37,994 bases of DNA from Bacillus marasmi. GTDB lineage: Bacteria > Bacillota > Bacilli > Bacillales > Cytobacillaceae. The stretch covers positions 1-37,994 of the forward strand of contig NZ_LR656189.1 in assembly GCF_902168435.1 (NCBI RefSeq), in the 5' to 3' direction. The notes under the pieces are model-generated. The model made no database searches. It saw only the letters and a program-made list of their open reading frames with translations, and was not told the origin of the DNA. A program made the position numbers and the translations under genes. Of this stretch, positions 14,251 through 37,994 are shown piece by piece; the stretch's first letter is position 1, and each line of letters opens with the position of its first letter.

Positions 14251-14324
14251 GCGGGTGTAGTTTAGTGGTAAAACCACAGCCTTCCAAGCTGTTGTTGTGG
14301 GTTCGATTCCCATCACCCGCTCCA
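14251..14324 (+). tRNA. tRNA-Gly (TCC), single gene
   Basis: 74-nt cloverleaf, acceptor GCGGGTG/CACCCGC, anticodon TCC in loop CTTCCAA, encoded CCA. It is transcribed alone from its own promoter and ends at the terminator 14 nt downstream, unlike the large array at the left. Confidence 0.95.
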
Positions 14325-33660: not shown

Positions 33661-36600
33661 ATGAGAGCGATTGTTAAAGGAAGATGGTTTGTACTACTAG
33701 CATGGATTGCAGTGACTGCGGTCTTATTTTTGTCTGCGCCAAACATGGCCAAACTGGTTGCTGATAAAGGCGATTTGGTTGTTCCTGAGGGATACTCCTC
33801 CTCTTTAGCGGCAGAAATTTTGAATGAGATACAGGACGGAAATGAATCTACAGTTGCCCTTGTTTTTCATGGGGAAGAAAAGCTAACAAAGAGTGAATTA
33901 GCCGAAGCTAAGGAAGCAATTACTCTTTTAGAGAAGAATAAAGATGAACTAGGGATTACTGAAATATTGTCTCATTTTAACGAAGAATCATTAAAAGATA
34001 CTCTAGTATCAGAGGATGGCACAACGATTCTAACGAGACTAACTGTAGATATGGGTGATCGTGAAGATAAAGAGGTATCGCAAGCACTGTACGAAACGCT
34101 CGAAGATGTCGAGCTAGAACACTACTATACTAGCAATTGGTTAGTAAATGAGGATCTAAATACAAATGCGCAGGAAGGCTTAAAGAAAACAGAAGGAATA
34201 ACGGTTGTGTTTATCTTAATCGTACTTCTCCTTGTATTCCGTTCGGTTGTAGCGCCGTTTGTACCGTTAGTAACAGTTGGATTTACCTATTTAGCATCGC
34301 AATCCATCGTTGCTTTTTTAGTCGATAAAATCAATTTTCCGATTTCCTCATATACACAAATATTTTTAGTCGCTGTACTATTTGGAATCGGAACAGATTA
34401 TAGTATTTTGCTGTTAAGTAGATTTAAAGAAGAGATGTCTAATCACGAAAGCATTACTGATGCGATTGTTGAAACCTATCGTACTGCCGGTAAAACGGTT
34501 TATTTTAGCGGACTTGCAGTTATGGTCGGTTTTGCTGCAATTGGTTTTTCTACCTTTAAGCTTTATCAATCAGCTGCTGCAGTTGCAGTGGGTGTTGCGC
34601 TATTAATGGTGGCGTTGTCGACAATTGTACCATTTTTCATGGCGGTGCTTGGTCGTAAGCTTTTTTGGCCAGCCAAAGGTCAACTCGAGCATAAAGACAG
34701 TAAGCTGTGGGAGATTGTTGGAAAATTCGCTTTAGCCAAGCCGGTTGTTTCATTACTGATTGTAGCGGCTGTTACAGTTCCATTTTTAGTAACGTATGAT
34801 GGTACGCTTTCCTACAACTCATTAACTGAAGTTGGCGACAAGGCCAATTCTATCAAAGCGTTTAATATGATTGCTGATGGCTTTGGTGAAGGACAAGCGA
34901 TGCCGACGCAAATTGTTATAAAAAATGATGAGAAAATGGACTCAAGCGAATACATCGGTTTGGCTGAGAAAATTAGTCAGGATTTGCAGAAAATTGATGG
35001 TGTTGACACAATACGTTCTGTCACTAGACCGATGGGAGAACCTCTCACAGATTTATTTGTCGCCAAACAGGCAAATACACTGCAGGACGGAATTGCCAAA
35101 GGAAATGACGGTATTAAGCAAATTAAGGATGGTTTAAGTGAAGCGGAAACGGAGCTTACTAAATCACAGCCACAGCTCGAAGAAGCAACAACAGGAATTG
35201 GAGAGCTAGTGAATGGCACATCTAAGCTAGCAGATGGCGTTGGTCAGCTTCAAACAGGCTTAACCCAGATTGAAGATGGAATGAAGAAAGGTTCGATGGG
35301 TAGTGCTGAAATCAAGCAAAACCTACAACTTATAAAGACAAAAGCGGAAGAACTTGCAAGTGGTAGTGAACAGTTGTTAGCAGGATACCAGGATGCAGGT
35401 TCAGGACTATCTTTCTTTCTATCACAATATCAAAAAATCGAGACTAGTTTACAAGACATTTCTGGGAAGTTGAATGCATCTAACGAGCTTTTTGCGAAAC
35501 TTGAGAAAAGTCATCCAGAATTAAATGCGGAAGAAAAGGATTATCAAACGTTAAAAGGTAATATTTTGTATTCACAGGCAGTAACAACAGAATTACTTAA
35601 AGGGATCAATGAGCTAAATACAAACTTTGCTGGTGCTATAAAAGGTATTCAGACTGCAAATGATAAGCTTGCATTGGTTGTTTCGGGCCAAAAGCAGTTG
35701 AATGAGGGGATGGCTCAGCTGATAATTGGTATTGGCCAACTTCAGACTGGACTAGATGCTGCTGCTAATGGTCAAGGTCAAGTTATCGGCAATCTTTCAC
35801 AGTTTTCAAATGGTTTGACGACTCTCAATGGAGGTCAACAGCAGCTCTTGGATGGTTTTTCAGGGCTTGGCGGCCAAATGACCCAACTAACTGATGGTCT
35901 AGGACAAGGTGTAACCGGATTAACGGAGATTCATGATGGTTTAGCTTCGGCTAATGATTATTTAACGGATTTAGCTAAATCGGACCAAGCTGTTACGGGT
36001 ATGTATATCCCAGATGAAGTGTTAACAAGTAAGGACTTTGCGCAAGTATTAGATACGTATTTATCAGCTGATCGGAAAGTGATGACGATTGATGTTGTGT
36101 TCAATTACAATCCATATTCAAATGAAGCAATGGCGCAAGTTGATGATATTAAAGAAACAGTTGAAAAAGCAACAAAGGGTACAAAGTTAGAAAATGCGAA
36201 AGTAGCTGTTGGTGGAATAACGAGCACAAACACAGATTTAAGTGCGATGTCTGACGCAGACTATTCTCGTACTGTTGTATTCATGATGATTGGGATTTCA
36301 ATCATTTTAATTATCATGTTACGTTCGTTTATCATGCCACTTTATTTAATTGCCTCTTTGATCATTACTTATTACACATCAATGGGGATTACCGAAGCGA
36401 TTTACGTAAACCTATTAGGCTACGAAGGAATTAGTTGGGCTGTTCCATTCTTTGCTTTTGTTATTCTAGTCGCATTAGGGATTGACTACAGCATATTCTT
36501 AATGGATCGTTTCAAAGAGTATCATGAGCTAAGCGTAGTTGAGGCGATGCTGTTGTCGATGAAGAAAATGGGAACAGTCATTATTTCTGCGGCAGTCATT

Positions 36601-36780
36601 CTTGGTGGAACATTTGCGGCGATGATGCCAGCGGGTGTTATGTCATTACTCCAAATTGCCACGATCGTACTGATTGGTTTGTTCCTATATGCATTAATTA
36701 TTTTGCCATTATTTGTACCAGTCATGGCAAAGCTATTCGGCAAAGCCAACTGGTGGCCATTTTTGAAAGGTAAATATTGA
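33661..36780 (+). CDS. MMPL/RND-family transporter with YhgE-like extracellular helical insert
   Basis: 1039 aa. One N-terminal membrane helix (about 7-27), an extracellular domain, five helices with GTDYSILLLSRFKEE at about 243, a very long extracellular insert (about 400-860), then five helices with ALGIDYSIFLMDRFKEY at about 938. The two GxDYS motifs are the proton-relay sites of MMPL/YdfJ proteins. The insert (about 470-770) is a coil of repeated LxxG steps such as GVGQLQTGLTQIEDGM and GIGQLQTGLDAAANG, like the YhgE/Pip family. It likely exports lipids, surfactants or toxic compounds. Translated from a weak site 3 nt behind marR, so probably coupled. Confidence 0.93.
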   Translation: MRAIVKGRWFVLLAWIAVTAVLFLSAPNMAKLVADKGDLVVPEGYSSSLAAEILNEIQDGNESTVALVFHGEEKLTKSELAEAKEAITLLEKNKDELGITEILSHFNEESLKDTLVSEDGTTILTRLTVDMGDREDKEVSQALYETLEDVELEHYYTSNWLVNEDLNTNAQEGLKKTEGITVVFILIVLLLVFRSVVAPFVPLVTVGFTYLASQSIVAFLVDKINFPISSYTQIFLVAVLFGIGTDYSILLLSRFKEEMSNHESITDAIVETYRTAGKTVYFSGLAVMVGFAAIGFSTFKLYQSAAAVAVGVALLMVALSTIVPFFMAVLGRKLFWPAKGQLEHKDSKLWEIVGKFALAKPVVSLLIVAAVTVPFLVTYDGTLSYNSLTEVGDKANSIKAFNMIADGFGEGQAMPTQIVIKNDEKMDSSEYIGLAEKISQDLQKIDGVDTIRSVTRPMGEPLTDLFVAKQANTLQDGIAKGNDGIKQIKDGLSEAETELTKSQPQLEEATTGIGELVNGTSKLADGVGQLQTGLTQIEDGMKKGSMGSAEIKQNLQLIKTKAEELASGSEQLLAGYQDAGSGLSFFLSQYQKIETSLQDISGKLNASNELFAKLEKSHPELNAEEKDYQTLKGNILYSQAVTTELLKGINELNTNFAGAIKGIQTANDKLALVVSGQKQLNEGMAQLIIGIGQLQTGLDAAANGQGQVIGNLSQFSNGLTTLNGGQQQLLDGFSGLGGQMTQLTDGLGQGVTGLTEIHDGLASANDYLTDLAKSDQAVTGMYIPDEVLTSKDFAQVLDTYLSADRKVMTIDVVFNYNPYSNEAMAQVDDIKETVEKATKGTKLENAKVAVGGITSTNTDLSAMSDADYSRTVVFMMIGISIILIIMLRSFIMPLYLIASLIITYYTSMGITEAIYVNLLGYEGISWAVPFFAFVILVALGIDYSIFLMDRFKEYHELSVVEAMLLSMKKMGTVIISAAVILGGTFAAMMPAGVMSLLQIATIVLIGLFLYALIILPLFVPVMAKLFGKANWWPFLKGKY

Positions 36781-36801: not shown

Positions 36802-36841
36802 AAACCAGGCTATCCATTGAATTGAGTAGCCTGGTTTTTTT
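36802..36841 (+). terminator. terminator of the marR-mmpL operon
   Basis: Perfect 11-bp stem AAACCAGGCTA/TAGCCTGGTTT, 14-nt loop and a T-run. Confidence 0.9.
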
Positions 36842-36908
36842 ATTTTGAAGATAGGTATTCACTATGCATATTTTTGATAACAAAAGGGTTAATGAAGGAT
36901 TGTGATCT

Positions 36909-37012
36909 GTCACTAATAAGGACTATTGGTAACAAAATAGAGTCCGCCAAAAGAGAAAGTTTTACCAATGTGGCTTATTGGTAACAAACTAGGCTGTTTG
37001 TGTCTCGGAATC
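36909..37012. repeat. two degenerate hairpin units in register with the 52-bp array
   Basis: Units 36909-36960 and 36961-37012 share ATTGGTAACAAA exactly 52 bp apart. Each has a palindrome (CTAATA/TATTGG; ACCAAT/ATTGGT) centred within about 1 nt of the array hairpin position. The second unit ends in TTTGTGT and CTCGGAATC, which are array spacer sequences. The hairpin arms are different from those of the array. Confidence 0.6.
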
Positions 37013-37867
37013 GGTCACGTAGACAAGCTCTATGTGCCCAGTTTTGTGTTTATGCCTCAGATTTGGTCACGTAGACAAGCTCTATGTGCCCGGTTTTGTG
37101 CTTATGCCTCAGATTCGGTCACGTAGACAAGCTCTATGTGCCCAGTTTTGTGTTTATGCCTCAGATTTGGTCACGTAGACAAGCTCTACGTGCCCGCTTT
37201 TGTGTTTTAACCTCGGAATCGGTCACGTAGACAGTCTTTACGTGCCCAATTTTGTGTTTCAACCTCGGAATCGGTCACGTAGACAAGCTCTACGTGACCG
37301 GATTTGTGTTTATGCCTCGGAATCGGTCACGTAGACAAGCTCTATGTGCCCGGTTTTGTGTTTATGCCTCGGATTCGGTCACGTAGATAAGCTCTATGTG
37401 CCCGGTCTTGTGTTTATGCCTCAGATTCGGTCACGTAGATAAGCTTTACGTGCCCAATTTTGTGTTTCAACCTCGGAATCGGTCACGTAGACAAGCTCTA
37501 CGTGACCGGATTTGTGTTTATGCCTCGGAATCGGTCACGTAGACAGGCTTTACGTGCCCAATTTTGTGTTTCAACCTCGGAATCGGTCACGTAGACAAGC
37601 TTTACGTGCCCGGATTTGTGTTTATGCCTCGGAATCGGTCACGTAGACAAGCTCTACGTGCCCGCTTTTGTGTTTTAACCTCGGAATCGGTCACGTAGAC
37701 AGGCTTTACGTGCCCAATTTTGTGTTTCAACCTCGGAATCGGTCACGTAGACAAGCTTTACGTGCCCGGATTTGTGTTTATGCCTCGGATTCGGTCACGT
37801 AGACAAGCTCTACGTGCCCGGTTTTGTGTTTTAACCTCGGAATCGGTCACGTAGACAGGCTTTACGT
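37013..37867. repeat. 17-unit, 52-bp tandem palindromic array
   Basis: Units start at 37013, 37065, 37117, 37169, 37221, 37273, 37325, 37377, 37429, 37481, 37533, 37585, 37637, 37689, 37741, 37793 and 37845. The period is exactly 52 in every case; the last unit breaks off after 23 nt. Each begins GGTCACGTAGA, loop of 5, then TCTACGTGCCC or a variant, followed by a 25-nt spacer ending CTCGGAATC or similar. The left arm is the same in all 17. As 52 is not a multiple of 3 and GTAG stops recur, it is not coding. No database family known to me. Confidence 0.95.
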
Positions 37868-37994
37868 TGTCAAGTCCATATTCTTGTGTAAAAACCTGTA
37901 ACAATGTTTTTCGCATAAATCTTCATCTTGATTAGTGGACTATACATATTTCGAATTTACGTTGAGGGGCGGGTATGATAGCCTGTATGGCAAG
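37868..37994. other. unrelated sequence interrupting the array, possible IS end
   Basis: At 37868 unit 17 gives way to TGTCAAGTCCATATTCTTGT and unique sequence. A possible start, GAGGGGCGGGT followed by ATG at 37972-37974, lies at the window edge, with seven codons visible. A 5' TGT end, short leader and a gene start would fit the left end of an insertion sequence, but the window stops too soon. Confidence 0.35.

Follow-up and report, generated by a model that had tools for sequence, protein, structure and literature searches.

A 52-bp palindromic satellite array in Bacillus marasmi and its relatives: class membership, unit anatomy and orientation along GC skew

The 17-unit tandem array at positions 36995-37867 belongs, with near certainty, to an already described class of 52-nt satellites that keep a constant length in Bacillus relatives. 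The arrays of this type that we compared have a common anatomy, a held spacing, shared arms with diverged spacers, a polarity relative to GC skew, and a gene context in which convergent gene pairs are preferred and divergent ones avoided. To explain these observations we propose a model that supposes binding of a protein, cooperative assembly, a polarity caused by replication, and a function.

In the passages cited here, Subirana and Messeguer (IJMS 2021; PMC8161180) describe constant-size, variable-sequence 52-nt tandem repeats of Bacillus. Across 176 genomes they count 1886 arrays at 51-53 nt and a further 781 at 20-21 nt, and they report species-specific families, several per length, many noncoding arrays per genome and partial conservation among strains. 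A single repeat often holds both a short signal sequence and its reverse, B. mesonae appears in their Table 1 and its record NZ_KV440949.1 in Table 2, and the class is deemed enigmatic, having two lengths, no common sequence and unknown function, for which a nucleoid protein or a small RNA are the ideas offered (PMC8161180). The same record was matched in our own scan of 84,980 species. The initial annotation knew no described Bacillus element of this kind; the 2021 publication supplies one, defined by a length of 51-53 nt and at least four repeats, and the present array has 16.8 copies of 52, is free of ORFs of 80 aa or more, and is partly conserved, as judged from one close relative of another species. 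An earlier paper on the class by the same authors reportedly appeared in J Bacteriol in 2020. As far as our searches reach, the 9-9-9 anatomy, the polarity, the gene context and the empty site described below are new, and that earlier paper may cover some of them; in the text of PMC8161180 the terms palindrom-, convergent and intergenic are absent and strand orientation is undiscussed.

The array, its flanking units and the element that splits it

The window, that is, the whole stretch of 37,994 nucleotides analysed, is the entire contig C22 of a draft genome of 4.64 Mb in 46 contigs. Its features around the array are these:

33661..36780, + strand: upstream gene, MMPL-family transporter of 1039 aa (ORF; PF03176 MMPL, E 1.9e-97)
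about 36803-36842: terminator-like hairpin after the MMPL gene, CCAGGCTA..TAGCCTGG plus a T run, read directly
36908-36934 and 36960-36986, + strand: two flanking units with another palindrome word, read from the sequence
36995..37867, + strand: main array of period 52, with sixteen whole palindromes and a cut seventeenth unit; the 27-bp palindrome is GGTCACGTA-N9-TACGTGCCC, with a 25-bp spacer after it
37860..37867, + strand: 8-bp duplicated target CTTTACGT in the last palindrome, at the element junction (contig-end sequences)
37868..37994, + strand: end of a repeated element and of the contig, in a 127-bp overlap with C41

At its start the contig carries a 5S rRNA followed by 14 tRNA genes (1-1529), and a further tRNA lies at 14251. 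The hairpin at about 36803-36842 is absent from the list of the terminator consensus scan.

Tandem Repeats Finder gives 36995-37867 a period of 52 with 16.8 copies, 87% matches and 0% indels; GGTCAC arms (n = 17, the first at 37013) occur one per 52 bases and all 15 scored centre-to-centre distances equal 52, so that the 17-unit array without indels stands as initially described. The same description made each unit a hairpin. The unit is an inverted repeat and perfect copies exist, for example 37273-37299, with a single-strand DNA fold of -10.9 kcal/mol that none of 200 shuffles equals, but at the third position of the arm T faces C in most copies (GGTC...GCCC), and a mismatched copy at 37325-37351 folds at -4.7, with 4 of 200 shuffles as good. 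On the + strand, where GC skew is positive in this region, the GGTC arm precedes its partner. Both a coding repeat and an Rfam RNA were rejected, the former in agreement with the initial annotation, since the ORF list holds no ORF of at least 80 aa inside the array and the Rfam scan of the array no family at its gathering score. The two flanking units have the palindromes TGTCACTAA..TTGGTAACA (36908-36934) and TTTTACCAA..TTGGTAACA (36960-36986), set 52 bp apart and 53 bp ahead of the first main unit, and units of their type also follow the second part of the array, on C21 at 373-451.

The array ends at 37867, with its 17th unit cut, because a repeated element, probably an insertion sequence, starts there; the last 127 bases of the window are identical to C41:1-127 on the opposite strand. 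The start of C21 holds the apparent other end of the element, which also begins C27, then the remainder of the cut unit and then four whole units, and the junctions read CTTTACGT/TGTCAAGTCC in C22 and GGACATAATC/CTTTACGTGCCC in C21, with the target CTTTACGT common to both. We infer that C22 and C21 join across one copy of the element, in which case the window array is probably the left portion of a longer array reaching from the MMPL transporter gene to a 364-aa gene that has no Pfam match. The element ends are TGTCAAGTCC and GATTATGTCC, at the starts of C21 (1-127), C27 and C41 (L020, L037, L033). A second array, split between C27 and C41, has the same two element ends within the same arm, at target CGCTACGT. 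The same element thus seems to have been inserted twice, in arms of two different arrays and with the 8-bp duplications CTTTACGT and CGCTACGT, and because of this double occurrence the palindromes of these arrays may be a preferred target.

Distribution and shared anatomy

The main array is not isolated, as at least ten further arrays are present in its own genome. A search of that genome found period-52 relatives on C17, C19, C21, C23 (three), C25, C27 (two) and C41 (two), C13 carries another related array, and nine arbitrary 20-kb stretches yielded five more arrays of 51-52 bp with different words. The words CACGTA, TCATAG, GAATCAA and CTCATG all occur at 51-52 in this genome, one length with several sequence families. 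Among 193 genomes of the family, 24 match the pattern CACGTA..TACGTG..CACGTA with free gaps, against one match in one genome for the reversed control. Order-wide the pattern is found in 5 of 299 genomes including the own genome; two belong to family f20, with a spacing of 51 throughout among the matches listed, and each of the two remaining genomes has a single match, as many as the control gives in each of the six genomes where it matches. The scan of 84,980 species returned 77 stretches, from Neobacillus species, Mesobacillus foraminis, Oceanobacillus salinisoli, several Bacillus sp., Paenibacillus sp. BSR1-1, one Bacillus MAG and one proteobacterial MAG, the single match of the last being likely chance; the repeat rows of period 45-60 in these stretches fall at 52 (n = 72), 51 (12), 50 (1), 53 (1) and 60 (2). 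A phage or plasmid origin was rejected, the array having no match at E 1e-5 among 50,697 records of phages and 72,556 of plasmids, and the 12 viral-contig stretches, with one match each and scattered length, being taken as chance.

A position-only sample of 68 stretches (1.36 Mb, 22 family genomes including the own) contained 51 noncoding tandem repeats, of which 22 have period 52, 2 have 51, 20 have 20-22 and 7 another period, while the periods of the 17 repeats within longer ORFs are without exception divisible by three. An array of 51-52 bp was present in 11 of these 22 genomes, with 40 to 300 kb examined per genome. Elsewhere in the order, a sample of 18 stretches covered 16 genomes in 13 further families; one stretch had been picked for its array. 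In this sample such arrays occur only in the f20 genomes G340 and G364, with none in two other f20 genomes or in the 12 genomes of the remaining families.

Several further arrangements were seen. CACGTA-type arrays at 51 rather than 52 occur in G340 and G364 (f20; L288, L291) and in N. massiliamazoniensis (L075, L077, L079, L081, L114, L142), where the palindrome is shorter by one base and the spacer unchanged at 25. Two or three adjoining 51/52-bp arrays with different words lie at L169 5658-6661 (C41 about 22.7-23.7 kb), and adjoining arrays with different palindrome words also at L077, L079, L114 and L119. The second noncoding class, of period 20-22 bp or two helical turns, is also in print (PMC8161180); examples are L175 7776-7957, L177 8126-8219 and 15191-15277, L182 8816, L185 3777, L295 4972-5619 and 11653-12191, and others, and these arrays have no A/T strand bias (A over T in 19 of 32). 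At L162 10157-11084 (C23 about 254-255 kb) a long repeat of 54/84-bp period over an ORF, probably coding, adjoins a 52-bp array.

The shared anatomy of the unit is KGTC-nnnn-W/N9/W-nnnn-GACM followed by 25 bp, that is, a 9-bp arm, a 9-nt loop, a 9-bp arm and a 25-bp spacer. It derives from 120 arrays, of which 103 with an odd-length palindrome and at least 7 of 11 pairs form 24 sequence clusters at 55% identity with one consensus each, not fully independent since the CACGTA word occurs in two, and the other 17, whose palindrome is of even length (as in many 51-bp arrays) or does not reach 7 of 11 pairs, did not enter the clusters; the arrays L071-L147 and L160-L170 had been selected by the CACGTA word or by similarity to the window, the position-only choice being the 68 stretches above. 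The cluster consensuses pair at 75-100% at distances 5-13 from the centre and at 12-58% elsewhere, a level inflated because the centre was chosen by pairing at 3-13, with the edges 4/5 and 13/14 not imposed. In the outer arm, position 2 is G in 44 of 48 arms, position 3 is T in 34 and position 4 is C in 37, and the loop-adjacent position is always A or T. The inner positions between KGTC and W use all four pair types, yet remain paired, and positions 6-9 covary between clusters with 75-88% paired. The 9-9-9 palindrome reaches significance in 12 of the 27 published consensus repeats and falls short of it in 15, so the layout may fail for some species.

Across 13 CACGTA-type pieces of the own genome the arms are 94% identical, the loops 52% and the spacers 40% (26% expected); part of the arm identity arises by construction, the pieces having been picked by word, and two element-split arrays are counted twice. 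Spacing is 52 in 146 of 158 own-genome distances and in 520 of 639 overall, with 51 in 100 more and 51-53 in 630 of the 639. A length of 52 (or 51) is thus retained in many species though the spacers of different arrays are barely alike, which supports the proposal in the initial annotation of a selected spacing in an ordered DNA array. Neither finding named there as refuting it was made: spacing does not vary freely, and arrays of the type extend to other genomes.

Gene context and orientation

Both neighbours are resolved for 74 arrays: 30 of these have convergent neighbours and 3 divergent ones, against a background, among all gaps above 60 bp in the same loci, of 118 and 144 of 721; a recount under a stricter ORF filter finds 37 and 4 among 89. 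The arrays prefer convergent pairs and avoid divergent ones, and in tandem settings the array is closer to the upstream 3' end in 32 of 48 cases. In the close relative G013, in which the next gene has 93% protein identity, the same gene pair is separated by a terminator-like hairpin and a short gap with no array, so single arrays come and go.

Many units are asymmetric, with KGTC on one arm and KGGC on the other, and this permits an orientation to be scored against GC skew, which we use as a proxy for the leading strand and which was measured without the array and 150 bases on either side. Symmetric-arm arrays, arrays with less than 3000 bases of flank and, where stated, those with a skew magnitude of 0.02 or below were omitted. 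The KGTC arm comes first on the skew-positive strand in 39 of 41 arrays, in 42 of 46 without the skew threshold (4 informative arrays being opposed), in 13 of 13 from the own genome, and in 37 of 39, from 12 genomes, after merging element-split arrays. The set is mostly one word, CACGTA clusters contributing 37 of 41 and other words 5 of 5. As GC skew is partly a gene-strand effect, the polarity was re-scored with third-position skew averaged between + and - genes (25 of 27) and, separately, with the skew of intergenic DNA only (35 of 39). Flanking tandem gene direction also predicts orientation, in 15 of 19, but arrays follow the skew where tandem genes are opposed to it (arms 2 of 2, A-rich spacer 7 of 7) and between convergent genes (arms 12 of 13, A-rich spacer 18 of 23).

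The spacers share this trend: their AT skew on the leading strand is 0.295 versus 0.018 in other intergenic DNA, the A-rich spacer strand is the leading one in 58 of 73 arrays, and A runs lie in mid-spacer in 41 arrays and T runs in 13, one array having both and 36 having neither. In the window array it is T that the spacer is rich in on the leading strand; this array departs from the A trend and conforms to the arm trend. A check of the polarity on new stretches (400 kb and 160 kb) was underpowered: seven arrays were scored, none informative for arm asymmetry, and where the skew magnitude exceeds 0.02 and the A/T bias is clear A lies on the leading strand in 4 of 4 (1 and 3), the array L306, with a skew of -0.005 and the opposite sign, having been omitted. 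With GC skew as proxy, the arrays would thus point, with few exceptions, in the direction of DNA copying.

A model for the arrays, its alternatives and related systems

We tentatively favour a model in which the arrays are polar protein-binding arrays in duplex DNA with five helical turns per unit. Each 52-bp unit would be one double-stranded operator, an imperfect 9-9-9 palindrome KGTCnnnnW-N9-WnnnnGACM, recognised by a putative sequence-specific protein, probably dimeric, whose preferred inner word varies by genome. The five-turn spacing would place the bound proteins on one face of the helix and allow their cooperative assembly, and the frequent inequality of the two half-sites (KGTC against KGGC), together with an array that lies along the replication direction, may make this assembly polar. 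Arrays in the 3' flanks of genes would most likely organise nucleoid structure or topology, or be read by a machine moving with or against the fork. We favour this model for the shared arms, the drifting spacers of fixed length, the five turns, the unequal half-sites and the skew-wise orientation, and we count for it the retention of one word at many loci while spacers drift. Against it stand the inner-arm covariation, which is as expected of a hairpin, and the make-up of the polarity set, mostly one word and with gene direction also predictive; the T-rich spacer of the window array and the 15 published consensus repeats whose palindrome is not significant count against it too, and gain or loss at a locus and the patchy occurrence (11 of 22 genomes) sit badly with an essential role. 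A bolder version, possible but doubtful, has the satellites as genome-wide polar nucleoprotein tracks of fork-oriented phased operators with a fast-evolving reader protein and a genome-specific word, a role comparable to that of other replication-oriented chromosome signals, but played by phased arrays.

The main rival is a selfish REP-like element, in which the hairpin is copied as single-stranded DNA of the lagging-strand template by a transposase-like enzyme measuring 52 nt, the polarity being strand-specific insertion and the gene context purging from promoters. We regard it as unlikely, and it keeps its place as main rival for the covarying inner arms, the gain or loss at a locus, with the empty site in G013, and the polarity with GC skew; the scarcity of arrays between divergent genes (3 of 74, where gaps give 144 of 721) also agrees with it. 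IS200/IS605 elements prefer the lagging strand and offer a parallel. It leaves unexplained why one arm word is retained while spacers change, and neither an unpaired GTAG nor an unpaired CGTC tag is found: GTAG lies inside the stem in the window word, and the 24 cluster consensuses have no common unpaired tag. PF01797 (Y1) is present in 165 of the 193 family genomes, whether or not arrays are known from them, the own genome has two weak Y1_Tnp matches (best E 3.3e-11), and G061 carries 51- and 52-bp arrays with no Y1_Tnp match, so a RAYT/Y1 protein as necessary partner is not supported.

An improbable alternative is a function at the RNA level, in which transcribed arrays of hairpins and A-rich linkers would serve as a sponge or a stabilising 3' UTR. 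The 52-nt repeats of B. coagulans are transcribed and seen in RNA-seq, according to the passages cited here of PMC8161180 and its companion PMC8625621, and both the A-rich spacers on the leading strand and the proximity to upstream 3' ends in tandem cases agree with transcription into such RNA. The skew is nevertheless followed against tandem genes and within convergent pairs, the window array lies behind a terminator-like hairpin, and two-unit RNA folds have z scores of -1.36 and -1.05, with 18 and 23 of 200 shuffles as good. Near-pairs in 403 distinct units show no preference for G.T (G.U in RNA) over A.C (94 versus 108) and hence give no support to a strand-specific hairpin. A terminator array, which would have a GC stem with an immediate T run in most units, was rejected as well: 2 of 17 units were flagged as terminator-like, against 1.6 sites in shuffles of the 1295-base region. 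The chain of RNA hairpins or terminators that the initial annotation allowed finds no support in these counts or in an orientation that tracks skew over gene direction where the two disagree.

Equally improbable is a neutral satellite, arising by slippage between hairpin-prone repeats of orientation-dependent stability, with 52 inherited from one ancestor. Homogeneity within arrays, higher-order periods of 104 and 156 and the gain or loss at a locus agree with it, and template switching can perfect palindromes; it does not account for a period of 51-52 across genera with spacers near random (40% against 26%), for one arm word common to many loci, or for noncoding repeats in two sharp period classes.

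The shared palindrome layout and the strong polarity along GC skew argue against the RNA idea in print and open an enigmatic class to specific tests, namely which protein binds the duplex and whether fork direction matters. Compared with known systems, the main array is like the published 52-nt class in its period, its noncoding nature, its many loci and its several words per genome; to that description the present analysis adds the 9-9-9 layout, the polarity, the gene context and the empty site. CRISPR arrays are likewise regular palindromic repeats, but the present spacers are near-copies of one another rather than unique and the loci are many per genome, and a CRISPR was accordingly rejected here as in the initial annotation. 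REPs in general avoid divergent promoters. REP and BIME elements resemble the present arrays in this, in being short extragenic imperfect palindromes, in clustering and in lying in gene 3' flanks; the present arrays differ in being regular direct 52-bp repeats, lacking an unpaired tag and occurring also in a genome without a Y1 transposase match. The tag is part of the REP superfamilies GTAG and CGTC, which the cited passages of PMC3733652 describe as short extragenic imperfect palindromes with an unpaired tag, often clustered. The CIRCE operator of HrcA is a 9-9-9 inverted repeat of 27 bp found as single copies in promoters, and the present units, which have the same 9-9-9, 27-bp layout, differ from it in sequence and in forming arrays at gene ends.
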